Assembly (NCBI RefSeq): GCF_937884665.1
Contig: NZ_CAKZYF010000192.1
Span: 1-64,000, forward strand
Length of the DNA stretch: 64,000 bases
From: an uncultured Allomuricauda sp.
Lineage (GTDB): Bacteria > Bacteroidota > Bacteroidia > Flavobacteriales > Flavobacteriaceae
Direction: 5' to 3'
Shown here: piece after piece, positions 28,342 through 61,926 of the stretch
Layout: each line of letters starts with the position of its first letter
Numbering within the stretch: the stretch's first letter is position 1
The notes under the pieces: model-generated
What the model saw: the letters and a program-made list of their open reading frames with translations, nothing else
The model's database searches: none
Told to the model about the DNA's origin: nothing
Position numbers and translations under genes: made by a program

Positions 28342-28593
28342 CAAAATAGCTCTTGAAAATTTGATGACAGCAATACGTCGAGCTAAAAACAGAACCTAAC
28401 ATCAAATAAATGAAAAACGTTATGCTTTTGTGATAAAATTTTGAGCTTTATCAAATAAACTTGAACGGTGTATTTGTTAAAGGCTTTACAAGCGTTAAAA
28501 TGGGTATGACCTAGAATCAAGAATGCATCTGTAATGTGGACTACAATACGTCCTACTGTCAAATACAAGAACAAAAAACCAAATGAATTGAAA

Positions 28594-30642
28594 ATGAAAA
28601 CCATTCCACAACCAGGAAAGCTCCTAATCCTTTGTTTACTGTCTTTTTTTGTTATTACCTGTAGCAATAATGACGATGATGTCAGTCCTGAAACTGAAAA
28701 TGAAATTAGTACTACAGATGGCAATCCAAATGCTACCCCATCATTACCTAACATAGTAAGGTTGGCCGGTTCCGTAGATATGCTAAGCACCCTTCTTGAT
28801 GCCATCGATACCGCGGATGCGGGGATTGCCGAAACACTTTTATCCGAAGGGGCTTTTACCGTTTTCGCACCCTCCAATGATGCATTTACCGATTTGTTCG
28901 ATCAATTGGAAGATTTTGACACTTTAGCCGATTTTGATGAAGCAGAAGAAAAGCAGCTACTGGCCCTAATTCTTCAATACCATGTAATTGCCGACAATGA
29001 GGCGTTCTCCAGCAATCTGACCGATGGAACGGTCTTGACCACATTGCAGACTGAAGAACTGAATATCATAGTGGACGGCAGCGTGTTTGTACAAGACAAG
29101 ACAGACGAACTGGCCGAAGTGATCGGTGCAGATAATGATGCATCCAATGGCGTGGTCCATATCGTGGACAAAATAGTATTGCCCCAAGCTGCACTGGATG
29201 TGCTCTTCCCAAAACCGAGCCTGGTCGAATTGGTAATGGACACAGAAGAATTGTCCTTGTTGGAGGAGGCGGTCATCAAAGCGAACTTGGTAGATGCCTT
29301 GAACGGCGAAGGACCCTTCACGGTATTTGCTCCGACCAACGCTGCAATCGAAGAACTCTTTACACTTCTCGGGGACACTTTTACCAGTTTTGATGACTTT
29401 GACAATTTCCTGGAATTGCAAATCCTAGAGCAAATTTTGCTGTACCATGTAGTACCCGCTAACCTAAACTTGTCCGATTTGACCCCAGGACCTGTCAATA
29501 CCTTACTTGAAAATGAAATGTTGGAAATTGTTGTGGACGGAAACACTTTTGTACTTGGAGATGCCTCAGATATCAATGCCAACATTATAACACCTGACCA
29601 AGAAGCCAGTAATGGAGTGGTCCATCTTATCGATAAGATTTTGATTCCGCAAGAAATCCAGGATTTTTTGAATACCATCAATCCCGATGACCCAAGTAGT
29701 GGTTTGCCTACCTTAAAAGAATTGGTGGAAAACTCGGAAGAACTTGAATTCCTCGAAGCCGCCTTGAAGTTGACCGGCCTATTGGAGACGCTTGGCGAAG
29801 ACGGTCCGTTCACCGTTTTTGCACCAACGAGTGAGACCATTAGCTTTCTATTCGCGCTTATTGGGGGTTCTATTGGAAGCATTGAAGATTTTGACCTGGA
29901 TTCTGAGATTGATATTTTAAGAAAGGTGCTGAGTTATCACGTGGTACCTGGAACATTCACTTCCGCCGATTTAACCCCTGGGAACCTAACTACTTTACTT
30001 CCAAATGACGGATTCGAAGTAGCGGACCTTATGGGTGAATTGGTTTTGGTTGATGGGCTGCATCTCCCCGTGCACCTATTGGACACGGATATCCCAGCAA
30101 AAAATGGAATAATCCACACCATAAATAGGGTCATGGTACCCGAGACGGTAAGAGATGCAATTCTTACTGAAACTGAACAAAACTTTTTGGACCATATTGG
30201 ACATTTTGTAGAATCTGACCAATTTGTATACGCCTTTATGCTTGTTAGGGATAGCTTTGAAGATGTTTTGGAAGGGGATGGGTTCACTTTGTTTTTACCG
30301 AACAATTCAGCCTTTTTAGAGTTGTTTGAGGATTTAGAAGGTGTTGAATCCCTAGAAGATTTTGATACAATAGATGAACTTTACCTTCTTGGGGAGATTT
30401 TATTGTACCATTGTGTCCAAAATAGTACAATCCTTTCATCCAGTTTGTTTAACGATAAGGAATTGAAGACCGTGCAAGGGGAAACCTTGAAGGTCAAAGT
30501 TGGTAATGGCGTCTTTATCTTAGACAAAACAGATATACCAGCGAAAATCACATCCCCTGATATAGAAGTACTTAATGGTGTAATTCATACAATTGATAAA
30601 GTATTGCCTCCTGGACGGGTACTTCATCAAATTTCATCCTAG
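28594..30642 (+). CDS. Fasciclin-repeat lipoprotein with four FAS1 domains (first of three)
   Basis: 682 residues, counting from the ATG at 28594 that opens the signal peptide; an upstream ATG at 28534 would add 20 non-signal-like residues. Lipobox VITC (Cys23) followed by SNNDDD. Four FAS1 domains begin near residues 53, 210, 374 and 533, each with the two family boxes: a GPFTVFAPTN-like segment (GAFTVFAPSN in domain 1) and the C-terminal NGVVHIVDK-like segment. Domain 4 is the most divergent (GFTLFLPNN). FAS1 domains mediate adhesion; surface display is inferred from the lipoprotein and acidic signal. It ends in its own strong terminator. Confidence 0.93.
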   Translation: MKTIPQPGKLLILCLLSFFVITCSNNDDDVSPETENEISTTDGNPNATPSLPNIVRLAGSVDMLSTLLDAIDTADAGIAETLLSEGAFTVFAPSNDAFTDLFDQLEDFDTLADFDEAEEKQLLALILQYHVIADNEAFSSNLTDGTVLTTLQTEELNIIVDGSVFVQDKTDELAEVIGADNDASNGVVHIVDKIVLPQAALDVLFPKPSLVELVMDTEELSLLEEAVIKANLVDALNGEGPFTVFAPTNAAIEELFTLLGDTFTSFDDFDNFLELQILEQILLYHVVPANLNLSDLTPGPVNTLLENEMLEIVVDGNTFVLGDASDINANIITPDQEASNGVVHLIDKILIPQEIQDFLNTINPDDPSSGLPTLKELVENSEELEFLEAALKLTGLLETLGEDGPFTVFAPTSETISFLFALIGGSIGSIEDFDLDSEIDILRKVLSYHVVPGTFTSADLTPGNLTTLLPNDGFEVADLMGELVLVDGLHLPVHLLDTDIPAKNGIIHTINRVMVPETVRDAILTETEQNFLDHIGHFVESDQFVYAFMLVRDSFEDVLEGDGFTLFLPNNSAFLELFEDLEGVESLEDFDTIDELYLLGEILLYHCVQNSTILSSSLFNDKELKTVQGETLKVKVGNGVFILDKTDIPAKITSPDIEVLNGVIHTIDKVLPPGRVLHQISS

Positions 30643-30670
30643 AAACTTGGTTTTTTCTTAATTTTTTATC

Positions 30671-30705
30671 CGGTCAACCTATAATCAGGTTGACCGTTTT
30701 TTTTT
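30671..30705 (+). terminator. Strong terminator after the first fasciclin gene
   Basis: A perfect 10-bp stem (CGGTCAACCT at 30671-30680, AGGTTGACCG at 30687-30696), 6-nt loop, then nine T. It separates the first and second fasciclin genes into different transcription units. Confidence 0.9.
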
Positions 30706-30825
30706 AGTCTTCCCATTTTGTTTAAGTCTTTTTGTTAAACTTTTTATAAATAAGTATAAACAAAAGCAACTGTTTTAGTTGAAATTAATCTTAAAAACAT
30801 TAAACAAAATCTAAAAACAGTTTCT

Positions 30826-32709
30826 ATGAAAACACTAATTAAGTTATCTCAAATTACACTAGTGATTTTTTCTTTGGTATTGGTATCATGCTCCGATGAT
30901 GACGATGCACCAAATACAAATCCCCCAGGCCCAGAGACGAATATTGTTGAAACCGCACAAGCTACCCAAGACCTCAGCAGCTTGGTGGCCGCCTTACAAC
31001 AAGCGGACCAAAGTCCCGATAATGACTTGGTTGCGGCTTTGAGTGGTGATGGGCCATTTACGGTATTCGCACCAAATAACGCAGCCTTCACCGACCTTTT
31101 GGCACAGTTGGATGGGTTCGATACCTTAGCCGACTTTAATACAACTGAATTACAAAACCTTTTGGCCGTAATTCTACAATACCACGTTATTGCGGGTACT
31201 ACCGCATTTTCCACCGATTTAAGTGATGGACAAACCTTGAATACACTTTTGGCAGATGCATCTTTGACCGTTTCGAGAGATGGAGGTGTTTTTATCCAAG
31301 ATGCTACTGATGTTGATGCAGAAGTAATTCTCGCTGATGTAGAAACTACGAATGGAATTGTCCATGTTATTGATAAAGTTCTTTTGCCACAGACTATCTT
31401 GGACCAGTTGGCTGACATTATATTGGTGCCCATCACCGATTTGGCCATAGCCAATCCCAACCTTCAAAGTTTGGTAGCAGCACTTACAGCTGCAAATGGA
31501 GACCTTCCTACCGTTTTACGTGGAGATGGCCCCTTTACCGTTTTAGCTCCAACCGACGACGCATTTACTACATTCCTTGACGGACAGGAAATCGGAGATT
31601 TGGACGTTGAAGTTTTGACAAATGTATTGCGCAACCACGTTATTAATGGAGAATTACTTTCTACAGATTTAGAGAATTTAGGTTCAGGTTATACCAGCAC
31701 ATTGGCCACAGGTGTAGATGAGCAAAATGTGAGCATCTTTTTTGATGCCACCGATGGCGTTGAGTTCAACGGTGTTTCCACGGTGACGACCCCAAATGTA
31801 CAAGCATTAAATGGAGTGGTGCATGTTGTCAATACCGTTATCGATATTCCTAACGTTGTAGACCACGCCGTGGCCAATCCAAATTTATCGGAATTGGTAA
31901 CTGCATTGACTGATGGTGGAAATACTACTTTCACCGATTTACTTTCAGATGCTACTGGCACATTTACGGTTTTTGCACCGGTAAATGCAGCTTTTGACGC
32001 TTTTGATAATCCAAACAGCAACGACATCAACGCCGTATTGTCCAATCACGTAGTTTCTGGAATAGCTGCATTCAGTACTGGATTGATGAATCAATACGTC
32101 AACACACTTGCAGAGTTTGACACTGAAGAAAATTTGAGTCTCTATGTCAATACAGATGACGGCGTTACCCTTAATGGAATAAGTGACGTAGTGGAAGCGG
32201 ATATTGTAGCTTCCAATGGCGTGATTCATGCGGTGAACACCGTTATTGACTTGCCTACCGTGGTGACCTTTGCTACAGCTGATCCTAATTTCAGTACGTT
32301 GGTCCAAGCTTTGACGACTTTGACGCCAAGTGTAGACTTTGTATCGGTACTTCAAGCGCAGGATGGCAATGGCGATGATCCCTTTACCGTCTTTGCTCCT
32401 ACCAATGCAGCATTTGATGCCTTGACCGCAATCCCTATGGAGGATGACTTAATCCCTATCCTTCAACATCACGTAATTGCAGGTGCCAACATCCGTGCAG
32501 GAGACTTAACTGAAAACGGAAATACGGTAACCCCTGCCACTTTAGAAGGTGATACGTTCACCATTACCTTACCTGGTACCAATGGTAATATTGCCGATGT
32601 AACCGATGGTGCTGGAAATACCGGCATTGGAATAGACCAAGTTGACGTCCAAGCCATCAATGGCGTAATCCATGTATTGGATGCTGTTTTGACGCCAGAC
32701 ACTAACTAA
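30826..32709 (+). CDS. Fasciclin-repeat lipoprotein with four FAS1 domains (second of three)
   Basis: 627 residues. Lipobox LVSC (Cys22) followed by SDDDD. FAS1 domains begin near residues 39, 203, 344 and 479. Domain 1 resembles domain 1 of the third protein (IVETAQATQDLSSLVAAL). Domains 2-4 form a distinct subtype repeating (A/T)xANPN and NGVxHxVNTVI and have shorter spacing (about 135-140 residues). Thus the three proteins are not simple copies but mix at least two FAS1 subtypes. Probable surface adhesin or matrix protein. Confidence 0.93.
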   Translation: MKTLIKLSQITLVIFSLVLVSCSDDDDAPNTNPPGPETNIVETAQATQDLSSLVAALQQADQSPDNDLVAALSGDGPFTVFAPNNAAFTDLLAQLDGFDTLADFNTTELQNLLAVILQYHVIAGTTAFSTDLSDGQTLNTLLADASLTVSRDGGVFIQDATDVDAEVILADVETTNGIVHVIDKVLLPQTILDQLADIILVPITDLAIANPNLQSLVAALTAANGDLPTVLRGDGPFTVLAPTDDAFTTFLDGQEIGDLDVEVLTNVLRNHVINGELLSTDLENLGSGYTSTLATGVDEQNVSIFFDATDGVEFNGVSTVTTPNVQALNGVVHVVNTVIDIPNVVDHAVANPNLSELVTALTDGGNTTFTDLLSDATGTFTVFAPVNAAFDAFDNPNSNDINAVLSNHVVSGIAAFSTGLMNQYVNTLAEFDTEENLSLYVNTDDGVTLNGISDVVEADIVASNGVIHAVNTVIDLPTVVTFATADPNFSTLVQALTTLTPSVDFVSVLQAQDGNGDDPFTVFAPTNAAFDALTAIPMEDDLIPILQHHVIAGANIRAGDLTENGNTVTPATLEGDTFTITLPGTNGNIADVTDGAGNTGIGIDQVDVQAINGVIHVLDAVLTPDTN

Positions 32710-32719
32710 AACTTTTCAC

Positions 32720-32755
32720 AAGGGATACTGAGAGAACTTCAGTATCCCTTTTTTT
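32720..32755 (+). terminator. Terminator after the second fasciclin gene
   Basis: A perfect 12-bp inverted repeat (AAGGGATACTGA, 32720-32731; TCAGTATCCCTT, 32739-32750) with a 7-nt loop and a T tract. It lies 10 nt after the stop and 20 nt before the next ATG. Confidence 0.88.
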
Positions 32756-32775
32756 AACCTAAAAACACATATGAA

Positions 32776-35298
32776 ATGAAAAAAGTGCTACGATTGAGGA
32801 GCTTTCTCCTCCTGCTTTCTATTGCCTTATTTACCGTATTTGCCTGTAGCGATGATGATGAACAAGCACTGGCAGAAATGATTGCGGACGAACAACTCAA
32901 CATCGTTCAGACTGCCCAAAATACAGATGCCTTAAGTTCTTTGGTGGCGGCCCTTACCGCAGCGGACGTAAATGAAGATTCAGATTTAATTGGCACCTTG
33001 AGCGGTGAAGGTCCGTTTACGGTGTTGGCGCCAACAAATGATGCTTTTGACGCGTTATTGCAAAGTCTGGAGGGATTTGATTCCTTAGAAGATTTTGATA
33101 CTGAAGAAGAAAGGGCCCTGTTAGGAACCATTTTACAGTACCACGTTGTCGCCGGCAGTACCCTTGCTTCTACCGATTTGAGCGACGACCAAGCATTGAC
33201 TACGGTCCAAGGAGAAAATGTAATCGTCAAAAAAGATGGAGATGATGTGTTCTTTGATGATGCAACGGACAATGACGCCCAAGTAATTATCCCTAATGTG
33301 GCCACTTCCAATGGTATAGTCCACGTGATAAACAAGGTCTTGTTGCCCCAAGAAGTTATTGACGCCCTGACTCCACCGGATGACCCCGGAACTTTAGTGG
33401 ATATTGTTGTAGCCACCGAAGCTTTATCACTCCTAGAAGCTGCTGTAATCAAAGCTGACTTGGTTGATACCTTGAATTCCGAAGGTCCTTTCACGGTCTT
33501 CGCACCAACAGACGATGCCTTTGTGGCGCTACTGGATATTTTGGGGGATGATTATGTTTCGCTGGACGATTTTGATACCGAGGAAGAAATTGATTTGTTA
33601 CGCAATATTTTGTTATATCATGTTATTCCTGCGCAGGTGCTGGAAGCCGACTTGGAAGTTGGGGATGTACCAACTGCCTTTACCGATAACTCCATATCCG
33701 TCATAGCTTCCGAAAACACATTTGTGATTGGAGATGCCTCCGAGACCAATGCGAACATCACAGATACAGATATTTTGGCCTCAAACGGTGTAGCACATAC
33801 CATAGATAAAGTGCTGTTACCACAAGCCGCTTTGGATTTTGTGGAGTCCTTACAATTAAAGACCATCGTGGAAATTGCCATCGAAACGGACGATTTAAGT
33901 CTATTGGTAGATGCTCTGCAAGCCGTCAATGCCGGACTTGTGGAAACTTTGAGCAGCGAAGGGCCTTTCACGGTTTTTGCACCTACAAATCAGGCATTTC
34001 TTGACCTTCTGGACATTCTGGGAGATGATTACAACAGTCTTTCCGACTTCGATACACAGGAGGAAATTGATTTGTTAATCGACATTTTAACCTACCATGT
34101 AGTTTCAGGAACAGCTGCTTTCTCAACCGATTTGAGCGATGGACAGCACATTCCTACCGTATTCGGCGATAACGTTGGTATAAGCCTTACCAATGGTACT
34201 GTACATGTGGTAGACGCTTCTGATGATAATGCCACTGTGGTACTACCTGACTTAGCCGCCAGCAATGGTGTGGTCCACGTGATTGATAAAGTCTTGCTAC
34301 CTCAAGTTGCTTTGGACTTTGTGGCTTCACTTCAGCTAAAAAATATAGTTGAGATTGCTGTGGAGACGGACGACTTGAGTGTTTTGGTAGATGCTTTGAC
34401 AGCTGCCAATGCGGGTCTGGTCGAAACCTTGAGCGGTGAAGGGCCATTTACTGTTTTTGCTCCAACCAACCATGCGTTCGTAGATTTACTGCATGCTTTG
34501 GGTGATGACTTCAATAGTTTGGCCGATTTTGACACGCAAGAGGAATTGGATATCCTGGTAACGATTCTCAAGTACCATGTTGTGGCCGGAACGGCAGCAT
34601 TTTCGACAAGTTTATCAAATGGACAGCAAATACCCACGTTCCAAGGTGAGAAGGTCGGAATTGTCCTGACAAATGGTACGATTCATATTGATGATGCCAC
34701 GGATGATAATGCTTCGGTTGTACTTCCGGACGTTCAAGCAAGCAATGGTGTGGTCCATGTAATCGACAAAGTACTGTTGCCACAAGCCGCTTTGGATGCG
34801 CTTACTCCACCAACTCCCAATATTGTGGAACTTGCCCAGTCCGTAGATGACCTTAGCCTTTTGGTAGATGCCTTGATACAGGCCGATGCGGGATTGGTTG
34901 AAACGCTAAGCGGAGATGGCCCATTTACGGTCTTCGCTCCAACCAATCAGGCTTTCGCCAGTTTACTCCATGCCTTGGGTAATGAGTTCAATAGCTTGGC
35001 CGATTTTGATACCCCAGAAGAGAAGGAGTTGTTGGCCAAAATACTCACCTATCATGTAGTGGCAGGAGATGCGTTCGCCGCAGATGATATCAAGGATCAC
35101 CAGAGATTTCATACCGTTCAGGGAGAGGATTTGATCGCCGTTTTCAAACACAGAAATGGGAAAGACCAATTATTCATCCGCGATAAAACACATATTGATG
35201 CGAAGGTAATAGGTGCCGACAATTTCGCCAGTAACGGAGTGGTACACGTAATAAACAAAGTTTTGTTACCGAGAGAAGTACTGGACGCGCTGCATTAA
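32776..35298 (+). CDS. Fasciclin-repeat lipoprotein with five FAS1 domains (third of three)
   Basis: 840 residues. Lipobox VFAC (Cys24) followed by SDDDE. FAS1 domains begin near residues 42, 207, 362, 522 and 681. Domains 3 and 4 are very similar (VEIA(I/V)ETDDLS(L/V)LVDAL, then ETLS(S/G)EGPFTVFAPTN) and lie exactly 480 nt apart, showing recent internal duplication; domain 5 has the same ancestry. Every domain keeps the NGV(V/A/I)H(V/T)I(D/N)KVLLP box. The ATG at 32776 starts a clean signal peptide. Likely adhesive surface protein; ligand unknown. Confidence 0.93.
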   Translation: MKKVLRLRSFLLLLSIALFTVFACSDDDEQALAEMIADEQLNIVQTAQNTDALSSLVAALTAADVNEDSDLIGTLSGEGPFTVLAPTNDAFDALLQSLEGFDSLEDFDTEEERALLGTILQYHVVAGSTLASTDLSDDQALTTVQGENVIVKKDGDDVFFDDATDNDAQVIIPNVATSNGIVHVINKVLLPQEVIDALTPPDDPGTLVDIVVATEALSLLEAAVIKADLVDTLNSEGPFTVFAPTDDAFVALLDILGDDYVSLDDFDTEEEIDLLRNILLYHVIPAQVLEADLEVGDVPTAFTDNSISVIASENTFVIGDASETNANITDTDILASNGVAHTIDKVLLPQAALDFVESLQLKTIVEIAIETDDLSLLVDALQAVNAGLVETLSSEGPFTVFAPTNQAFLDLLDILGDDYNSLSDFDTQEEIDLLIDILTYHVVSGTAAFSTDLSDGQHIPTVFGDNVGISLTNGTVHVVDASDDNATVVLPDLAASNGVVHVIDKVLLPQVALDFVASLQLKNIVEIAVETDDLSVLVDALTAANAGLVETLSGEGPFTVFAPTNHAFVDLLHALGDDFNSLADFDTQEELDILVTILKYHVVAGTAAFSTSLSNGQQIPTFQGEKVGIVLTNGTIHIDDATDDNASVVLPDVQASNGVVHVIDKVLLPQAALDALTPPTPNIVELAQSVDDLSLLVDALIQADAGLVETLSGDGPFTVFAPTNQAFASLLHALGNEFNSLADFDTPEEKELLAKILTYHVVAGDAFAADDIKDHQRFHTVQGEDLIAVFKHRNGKDQLFIRDKTHIDAKVIGADNFASNGVVHVINKVLLPREVLDALH

Positions 35299-38156: not shown

Positions 38157-39817
<1,661 letters not shown>

Positions 39818-54350: not shown

Positions 54351-54893
54351 ATGGAATCATTCTTTAACGAGTTATCCACGGAGTTAAAACTTGGGACGAC
54401 CAAACGAGGACATCCGTTTCGCTATTTTAGTTTAGCCACCAATGGTTTGAATGAACATTTGGGTATCAGGACCGTAGTATTGCGAAAAGTTACTCCAGAG
54501 TTGCGATGCACCTTTTATTCCGACAAGCGTTCAAAAAAAATGGAAGAACTGGCAAGCGACCCAGCCGTTTCCGCACTTTTCTATCATCCGAAAAAACTAT
54601 GGCAGATAATTATCAAGGGGAAGGCCAAAATTGAAAATGATACAGAAGTTTTAAAGACTTTTTGGAACGGCATACCCATAAAGGCAAGAAAGGATTACAC
54701 AACGCAACTGCCTCCTGGAACTCCAATGGTAAAAGAAACCGACATCGAATATCTAAATGATGGGGATTACTTTACCATGGTACATATCATTCCCGAACAG
54801 ATAGAGTTCCTAAAACTAGAGCGGCCCAGCCACAGTCGGGTACTTTTTTCCAAAAGAAAAGGGGATTGGGTTGGTACGCAATTAGTGCCTTAA
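54351..54893 (+). CDS. Pyridoxamine 5'-phosphate oxidase-like flavin-binding protein
   Basis: 180 residues. The split-barrel PNPOx-like fold is indicated by RTVVLRKV, FYSDKRSKKMEEL (FMN-phosphate loop), ALFYHPKKLWQIIIKGKAKI and FTMVHIIPEQIEFLKL. It is a family of FMN- or F420-type oxidoreductases with loose specificity, distinct from PdxH. The ATG at 54351 was chosen over a TTG 9 nt upstream. Overlaps the convergent bshC 3' end by 12 nt. Substrate unknown. Confidence 0.85.
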   Translation: MESFFNELSTELKLGTTKRGHPFRYFSLATNGLNEHLGIRTVVLRKVTPELRCTFYSDKRSKKMEELASDPAVSALFYHPKKLWQIIIKGKAKIENDTEVLKTFWNGIPIKARKDYTTQLPPGTPMVKETDIEYLNDGDYFTMVHIIPEQIEFLKLERPSHSRVLFSKRKGDWVGTQLVP

Positions 54894-56483
54894 AATCAAA
54901 AAGGAGCTTTCTAGAGGATTTAAATGTGCCAGTAACCAATCGATGAGTTTCGGTCCTATTTCCAAATACGCTTCAGAAAAATTCAACTGTCGTTCCTGAA
55001 GGGATTGGTTGGGGAACAACTCATTTTGAATATCCGTCATCCGAACCACATGGTCCTTCAACTTTCGCTTTTGAGCTTTTAAAAGTCTTTTTTCCAGTAC
55101 GTCAAGACCTTTCTTCTGCTTTATCTCCTGGGCTTTTACTGCCTTGATAAACGTACTGTCCGTTTGTTCGGCCAAATCGTACAACAGCGCAAATTGTTTT
55201 TCAAGATGCTTTTTTTGTGGGGTAAAGTTGATGTCTATATTGGAAATTTCCCGAATTTTTTTATTGATAAAACTCGTTTGCTTTAAAAAAAGATCGGAAC
55301 TGTCCAATTGTAGTTTTTTGATCTTATCCCCTTGCTTTTCGGTCATTAGCAGTGCGGAATTGCGTAAAAGAAGTATCGGAAAACTTACGCCCAAAGAATC
55401 AAAATAGGACTAGAGTTCCAACCAATAGTCGAGCTCACCTCCACCACCGTTATAGCTTAGATTAGGTAAAATCACTTCTTGATACAGCGGTCTCGCAATT
55501 ACGTTGGGGGAAAAACGCTCGGGATGCTTTTCCAATTCGTCTTCCAATTCGCTTTGGGAAAATACGATATCTGTATTGTTGACCGCGTAAATGTTGTCTT
55601 TGAAAACAAGGCGTTCCCGAAGACCTTCCTTCAAGTAGAAGTAATTGATCTCTCTTGGATTTACCTGGATTTTGTAGGTATCCGAAACCTGGCTCAACAG
55701 GCGTATGGACCGAGAAACTTGTGCGAATGGGATTTTTTCAAAAATGTCCTTTTTCACGTAAGGAACCAAAAGCCTTTTTAAATCAGCATCATCGCCATCA
55801 ACGATTACAAGACCATATTTTCCGAACAAGGTGTTGACCAGGAAACGGGTCGCTTCAGCCAGCCGGTCTTGTTCCAAATAGGAAGTTGTAAAGAGTTCGA
55901 TAAGCTTTTTGGCATGAACGGAATCGTCTAGCCGGGCTGACCATGTCTCCAATACCTCGTCCAAGCCCCTTGTGGACCGTCTCCCTACAGCACCAGTCGC
56001 GTCCTGGTTCCACTGTACTTTTTGACCCTTAAAATTGAAAAAGTTTATTTCGTCAAAATCATGGTCTTCCGTGGCCATCCAGTAAACCGGGACAAAATTG
56101 AAATGTGGATACTTTTCCCGTAACCTATCTACCATATTAAGTGTCGATACAATCTTATAAAGGAAATAGAGCGGTCCGGTAAATAGGTTCAATTGATGTC
56201 CAGTAACCACGGTAAAGGTCTCTTTCTTTTCCAGGTCGATAATGTTAGTACGGGTGGCTTCAGACAACTCAAATCCCCGATATTGATTGCGAAGGCTATT
56301 GACAAGTACCCCTCTTTGATTTGAATCGTAGGTCTTTTGCTTTTCAAGAATCTGAGCCTCGAAATTCTCAAGGGTCGGAAATCTATTGTAAAATGGGGCC
56401 AGTGCTTCCTTTTGGTCGAGATAATCGCAAATAAGTGGAGAAAAATAACCTGTTTTCCGAAAAGGTATACAATCTACTTCCAT
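54882..56483 (-). pseudogene. bshC: Bacillithiol biosynthesis cysteine-adding enzyme, interrupted by in-frame TAG
   Basis: BshC adds Cys to GlcN-malate in bacillithiol synthesis. The full 533-codon frame would match the family length, but codon 358 is TAG (minus strand, 55410-55412). Before it: FTVVTGHQLNLFTGPLYFLY and YWMATEDHDFDEINFF. After the stop the same frame resumes SYFDSLGVSFPILLLRNSAL and the C-terminal coiled coil to the end at 54882. Homologues have Lys at this place (AAG to TAG, one change). No frame change. Either a nonsense mutation, sequencing error or readthrough. Other genes in the window use TAG as stop, so the code is standard. Confidence 0.9.
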
Positions 56484-60684: not shown

Positions 60685-61926
60685 CTATTTCTGAAATGTA
60701 CTAAGTGTTTTGATTATGATGGAAACACAATCCATTAACTGTTCTCGAGTAATCACTAAGGGTGGGGCAAACCGAATAATATTTCCATGTGTGGGTTTTG
60801 CCAAAAGACCATTGTCCTTTAATGCCATACAAATATCCCAAGCAGTGGAGCTATCTTCCGTATCATTGATGATGATGGCATTCAAAAGTCCTTTTCCCCT
60901 TACTTTAACGACCAAATCACAGGTCTCGATAAATTTCCCCAACTTCTCACGAAAAAGATGGCCTAAGATATCAGCGTTCTGCGCCAACTTTTCATCCCGC
61001 ACCACCTCCAGCGCGGCGGTAGCTACTGCACAGGCCAACGGATTTCCCCCAAAGGTAGAACCATGTTCGCCTGGCTTAATGGTCAACATGATTTCATCAC
61101 GTGTCAATACAGCTGAAACGGGGAATACCCCTCCAGAGAGCGCCTTGCCCAACACTACAATATCAGGTTTAAAACCCTCGTGGTCACAGCATAGCAACTT
61201 TCCCGTTCTTGCAATACCTGTCTGTACCTCATCCGCAATAAAGAGCACATTGGCTTCTTTACAGATTTCATACGCTTTCCGCAAGTAGCCTTCATCCGGA
61301 ACATTTACCCCGGCCTCCCCTTGAATAGGTTCCACCATAAAAGCGGCAACATTGGAATCGCTCACAGCCTCCCGTAATAACTCCAAATCGTTGTAAGGGA
61401 TAATTTCGTATCCCGGCATGAAAGGGCCAAAACCTGAAGTGCTGGACGGGTCAGTTGACGAGGAAATCGCTCCTAAGGTCCTTCCCCAAAAATTTCCTTC
61501 TACAAAAATAACCTTAGCTTGGTTTTTAGGCACTTTTTTAATTTCATACGCCCATTTCCGCGCAAGTTTGACGGCAGTTTCACCGCCTTCTACACCTGTA
61601 TTCATGGGCAAGACGCGGTCATATCCAAAATAAGAGCTCACGAATTTGACATATTGCCCCAAGATATCGTTGTAAAAAGCCCGTGATGTGAGTGTTAATT
61701 TTTGGGCTTGTTCGGTAAGCGCCCCAACAATTTTTGGATGGCAATGCCCTTGGTTTACCGCCGAGTACGCAGAAAGAAAGTCATAGTATTTTTTTCCTTC
61801 CACATCCCATACGTGCACCCCTTTGCCTCGGTTCAACACTACCGGTAGCGGGTGATAGTTATGGGCTCCGTACTTGTTTTCTAATTCAATTGCTTGCTTT
61901 GACGCCAGTTGTTCTAAAACAGCCAT
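60685..61926 (-). CDS. rocD: Ornithine aminotransferase
   Basis: A 413-residue class III PLP transaminase, ornithine + 2-oxoglutarate to glutamate-5-semialdehyde + glutamate. [48 protein letters not shown] and [16 protein letters not shown], where the Lys forms the Schiff base; [17 protein letters not shown] near the second substrate site. It belongs to the ornithine branch of this family, judging by NYHPLPVVL and the [13 protein letters not shown] start. Single gene. Confidence 0.95.

Follow-up and report, generated by a model that had tools for sequence, protein, structure and literature searches.

The genes bshA to bshC are present in Bacteroidetes, and deletion mutants of bshB and bshC in Chlorobaculum tepidum grew only about 20% slower, as reported in PMC6282198. 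The BshC family is represented by the model TIGR03998, by the domains PF10079 and PF24850 and by a solved structure (PDB 4wbd). As for interrupted genes in sequenced genomes, it is stated in PMC3711429 that singleton frameshifts confirmed by BLASTp are expected to reflect errors of sequencing and not genuine indels. Here, a bshC frame interrupted by a single stop codon was compared with these two precedents, and the interruption was found to be most likely, and in our judgement quite probably, an error of sequence or assembly, the gene being presumably intact in the organism.

The bshC locus

The window, i.e., the whole 64,000-nucleotide stretch of DNA analysed, belongs to contig 192 of a 216-contig draft genome of 4.2 Mb, for which a completeness of 96.91% and a contamination of 4.19% are given. 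Its gene order was common to the related genomes G022 and G066, which also carried the nearest bshC genes (74% identical), while the nearest named ones were those of Allomuricauda and Flagellimonas. Elsewhere in the window, three adjacent long ORFs of 702, 627 and 840 aa (28534-35298, plus strand) had repeated domains matching one another, which resemble fasciclin-type repeats, and a 413-aa ORF (60685-61926, minus strand) had counterparts of 425 and 426 aa in the two relatives, to which it was only about 67% identical.

The bshC gene was placed on the minus strand at 54882-56483 as a frame of 533 codons followed by a terminal TAA, and otherwise unbroken except for one in-frame TAG at codon 358 (55410-55412, read 55412-55410). 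From 5′ to 3′, it comprised 357 sense codons, the TAG, 175 sense codons and the TAA, with the frame constant throughout.

55413..56483, minus strand: bshC codons 1-357, N-terminal Rossmann-like domain (PF10079, profile positions 1-362 of 380)
55410..55412, minus strand: in-frame TAG, codon 358, where homologues have Lys or Arg; probable sequence error, from frame and alignment
54882..55409, minus strand: remainder of the bshC frame, C-terminal coiled-coil domain (PF24850 match; dN the same either side of the stop)
55428..55457, minus strand: bshC codons 343, 345 and 352, departing from columns invariant in 82 homologues, from the alignment

Residues 1-357 matched PF10079 with 408.5 bits, and the part after the stop matched PF24850 with 163.9 bits. 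When read through, the protein scored 441.9 bits against TIGR03998 (model positions 2-526 of 529; curated cut-off, 265.8 bits), far enough over the cut-off and across nearly the whole model for a BshC, and the structure 4wbd could be aligned to its residues 19-513; only the frame, in the sequence as given, was not uninterrupted. The preliminary description, which had recognized the same frame on both sides of the TAG and a BshC of normal length, was thus borne out.

In the read-through protein, the PF10079 match ended at residue 375 and that of PF24850 started at 377, placing the TAG 17 residues short of the former and 19 short of the latter. Such a location near the domain junction might suit a working split gene, in which translation would start anew beyond the TAG and each domain would be made as its own polypeptide. 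However, the first in-frame start past the TAG was a TTG at the sixth codon, no in-frame ATG occurred before the 22nd codon, and none of the 68 full-length homologues of the genus was split at this position, making this arrangement hardly credible.

Conservation at the stop site and on either side

The alignment of homologues consisted of 82 distinct BshC sequences from 89 loci, leaving out L043, L084, L088-L091 and one duplicate protein. The residue aligned to the TAG was Lys in 75 and Arg in seven of them, encoded by AAA (53), AAG (22), AGA (5), CGA (1) and AGG (1), and no other homologue examined had a stop at this site. Both nearest relatives presented AAA there, not AAG, the G022 gene (L084) being outside the count of 82. 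The earlier proposal that one base change, AAG to TAG, had struck a Lys position holds for the Lys consensus, and AAG may, but need not, have been the starting codon.

Four columns invariant among the 82 homologues were broken in this bshC (117, 343, 345 and 352), all of them 5′ of the stop and three within the 15 codons preceding it; no invariant column of this alignment was broken after the stop. The three departures close to the stop are absent from the preliminary description. Any other of the 82 sequences had at most two such departures, although 5/82 others matched the departure count of the present bshC when the threshold was lowered from 100% to 97%. In random draws of four of the 123 columns, 0.8% of the trials placed at least three of them no more than 17 codons from the stop; this test of clustering was devised after the data had been seen. 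Some of these departures may represent true divergence; in terms of dN, bshC ranked 37th of the 41 window genes, i.e., among the faster ones.

The dN values before and after the stop were 0.213 and 0.209 against G022, and 0.207 and 0.205 against G066, while the comparison of G022 with G066 gave 0.106 and 0.098 for the same two parts. Since dS against this genome was saturated, dN/dS ratios were unusable. The relaxed constraint beyond the break that marks a pseudogene in decay was not found, and an old pseudogene was rejected because conservation was equal on both sides and change was no faster past the stop.

Pathway partners and the genus survey

Counting the present one, 71 genomes of the genus were surveyed; a bshC match was present in 70, and the gene was full-length and free of stops in 68 of the 70 others. 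In the remaining two, it was found as two pieces on two contigs (G037) or gave no match (G060, 71% complete). A second copy elsewhere in the present genome was rejected, only one match being obtained. The pathway partners bshA and bshB1 were each present as one match (562.8 and 300.8 bits, respectively, both exceeding the cut-off), with no stops inside either of them.

These observations bear on the reading in which the TAG is a real, recent nonsense mutation that left a 357-residue fragment lacking the coiled-coil domain and abolished bacillithiol production, a loss tolerated as bacillithiol is non-essential. The equal conservation on either side of the stop would suit a very recent loss, and the mild growth defect of the C. 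tepidum bshC deletion described in PMC6282198 indicates that a real loss of this non-essential gene could occur. Nevertheless, bshA and bshB1 were intact, the gene was whole in almost all of the other genomes and, as described below, comparable breaks affected essential genes of the same assembly, so that a recent mutation is considered unlikely. The view that the organism itself has a broken bshC, with bacillithiol lost unless the stop is read through, is accordingly not the best reading of the locus.

Broken genes across the assembly

About 289 kb of this genome (G000), made up of the window and 12 additional stretches, was compared with the matching stretches of G022 and G066; a thirteenth stretch, C185, was without a paired stretch in the relatives. 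Conserved genes were counted where covered over at least 85%, amounting to 189 with G022 as reference and 187 with G066. Interior breaks were found in seven of the 189 genes, and the same seven appeared among the 187, comprising three TAG, one TAA, one TGA and two frameshifts, with the families of the broken genes, pyrG included, assigned from the G022 copies.

bshC (window): TAG at codon 358, listed with both references
pyrG (window): frameshift near residue 75, listed with both references
M28 peptidase (L142, contig C106): TAG at 380 of 517
lipA (L143, contig C170): TAG at 279 of 291
Glycosyl hydrolase 3 (GH3) plus beta-lactamase domain protein (L144, contig C129): TGA at 572 of 969
metG (L146, contig C2): TAA at 234 of 691
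ileS (L138, contig C55): frameshift near 221 of 1142

The breaks of metG and ileS had already come to light in a synthetase search when their stretches were chosen, which biases any rate drawn from those two, whereas the other five were unselected in that way, though bshC and pyrG had been named in the preliminary description. In the control comparison between G022 and G066, 219 and 220 genes were free of frameshifts and none was accepted as having an interior stop; eight genes (G022 versus G066) and seven (G066 versus G022) were set aside by eye, either as spurious ORFs or because their stops preceded the true start. Similar curation was applied to the present genome. With G022 against it, 19 genes were listed, of which seven were kept and 12 dropped by eye, the stop seemingly preceding the true start (within the first 38 residues in 11, and at residues 84 and 99 in one, the stop at 99 also occurring in G066). 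With G066 against it, 17 were listed, seven kept and 10 dropped, mostly for stops or stop-bearing insertions in the first 49 residues; dropped ORFs of 133 and 148 aa had later stops, yet stops were present in G022 too. Later stops among the control genes set aside were those at residue 99 of the gene with the 84/99 stops and at residues 101 and 107 of the 133-aa ORF.

Three of the seven broken genes, pyrG, metG and ileS, were each single in this genome and present only as the broken copy. Loss of the Met- or Ile-tRNA ligase is lethal, as is loss of CTP synthase unless cytidine is fed. The pyrG lesion had been reported in the preliminary description and was recovered here as a frameshift relative to both relatives.

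38181..39814, minus strand: pyrG (CTP synthase), frameshift near residue 75, about 39590; compared with G022 and G066, both whole

Full-length or near full-length pyrG was found in 67 of 69 other genomes (none in G049 and a fragment in G060), and three of those 67 matches (G025, G069 and G028) had one TAA listed inside the matched span. Likewise, metG gave one long stop-free match in 66 of the 69 others, the exceptions being fragments in G049 and G060 and two adjoining matches in G020 that formed one open frame. For ileS, many relatives were listed with a TAG in the span; in the 17 loci checked, these stops fell at residues 4-8 of a query that extended too far upstream and would precede the likely start. 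The ileS gene of G054 was split between contigs. Breaks similar to that of bshC were thus observed in indispensable genes present as a single copy, and since the cell cannot live without their products, the lesions of pyrG, metG and ileS are most simply taken as errors.

Departures from invariant columns were also counted in these genes among about 30 genomes per gene: five were broken here in pyrG (at most two in the others), 11 in metG (at most 10 in the others) and 14 in ileS, for which one other genome had 19; the excess may stem partly from the longer branch of this genome. When 179 genes were scanned for clustered radical replacements, nine clusters were obtained here and none in either relative. 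By eye, most of these looked like true divergence or over-extended reference frames, and therefore nothing was drawn from them, this genome being the outgroup of the three. The base spectrum of the lesions, with apparent transversions to A or T at or beside the stops, was not used either, stop codons being A/T-rich and the cases few.

In a search for ABC-transporter domains, one of 49 matches presented a stop: L148, with a single in-frame TAA towards the end of the short contig C185 and no paired relative for comparison. The same search gave one weak TAA-bearing match in each relative, below the cut-off. No stops were found in the eight matches to the elongation-factor GTPase domain, a result that adds nothing to the case for errors. 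Two GTPase-domain matches of both relatives, probably EF-Tu and EF-G judging by length, were missing here. These missing matches, together with the lack of any Trp, Tyr, Thr or Ile tRNA among the 29 tRNA loci found, indicate that the assembly has gaps despite its stated completeness. The 16S rRNA gene, considered as a sign of metagenome assembly, was uninformative, with no match here and none in G066 either.

Possible read-through of the stop codon

A further reading holds that the TAG is read through by means of a suppressor tRNA-CUA or recoding, yielding full-length BshC. The frame past the stop was conserved, in keeping with this reading. No tRNA-CUA was detected by ARAGORN among the 29 tRNA loci. 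This absence is weak evidence because the four isotypes mentioned above were also missing from the list, in which 150 of 254 candidates were scored, so that a tRNA-CUA could have been missed. On the other hand, among 183 sampled conserved genes TAG was the terminator in 45 (TAA in 106 and TGA in 32), comparable breaks were made by TAA, TGA and frameshifts, and the other homologues had no stop at the site. The pattern of suppression or reassignment, with breaks by TAG only and TAG rare as terminator, was not observed, and amber reassignment was rejected on the same grounds. Read-through of the bshC stop is therefore regarded as very improbable, and amber suppression cannot explain the whole set of breaks because TAA, TGA and frameshifts are among the lesions. 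That the strain truly carries all the breaks and is rescued by general read-through of stops and frameshifts, bshC included, has a likelihood close to negligible.

Interpretation and comparison with known systems

A sequence or assembly error is favoured for the TAG since the same assembly breaks pyrG, metG and ileS, by another stop or by a frameshift, and the bshC lesion looks the same as theirs. We infer that the TAG itself is one of the assembly's errors. The organism would then carry an ordinary, intact bacillithiol synthesis gene, and the TAG at codon 358 would stem from one erroneous base, or from several in close succession, in the consensus of this fragmentary draft from the Flagellimonas/Allomuricauda group. 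The BshC of the living organism would attach cysteine to GlcN-malate, the final step of bacillithiol synthesis. With at least three essential genes broken, no single lesion of this assembly should be equated with the loss of a gene. A genuine stop would mean that bacillithiol synthesis was recently lost in a member of a genus in which 68 of the 70 other sampled genomes keep the gene whole, a modest finding.

The set of breaks resembles the error-caused gene breaks dealt with in PMC3711429 in that they occur in one genome, the relatives are whole and some of the genes are essential; that source treats frameshifts, whereas five of the seven lesions here are in-frame stops. Compared with the BshC family (TIGR03998), the gene differs by the TAG at codon 358 and by changes at three invariant positions shortly preceding it, and is alike in length, in the possession of both domains and in a score above the cut-off when read through.
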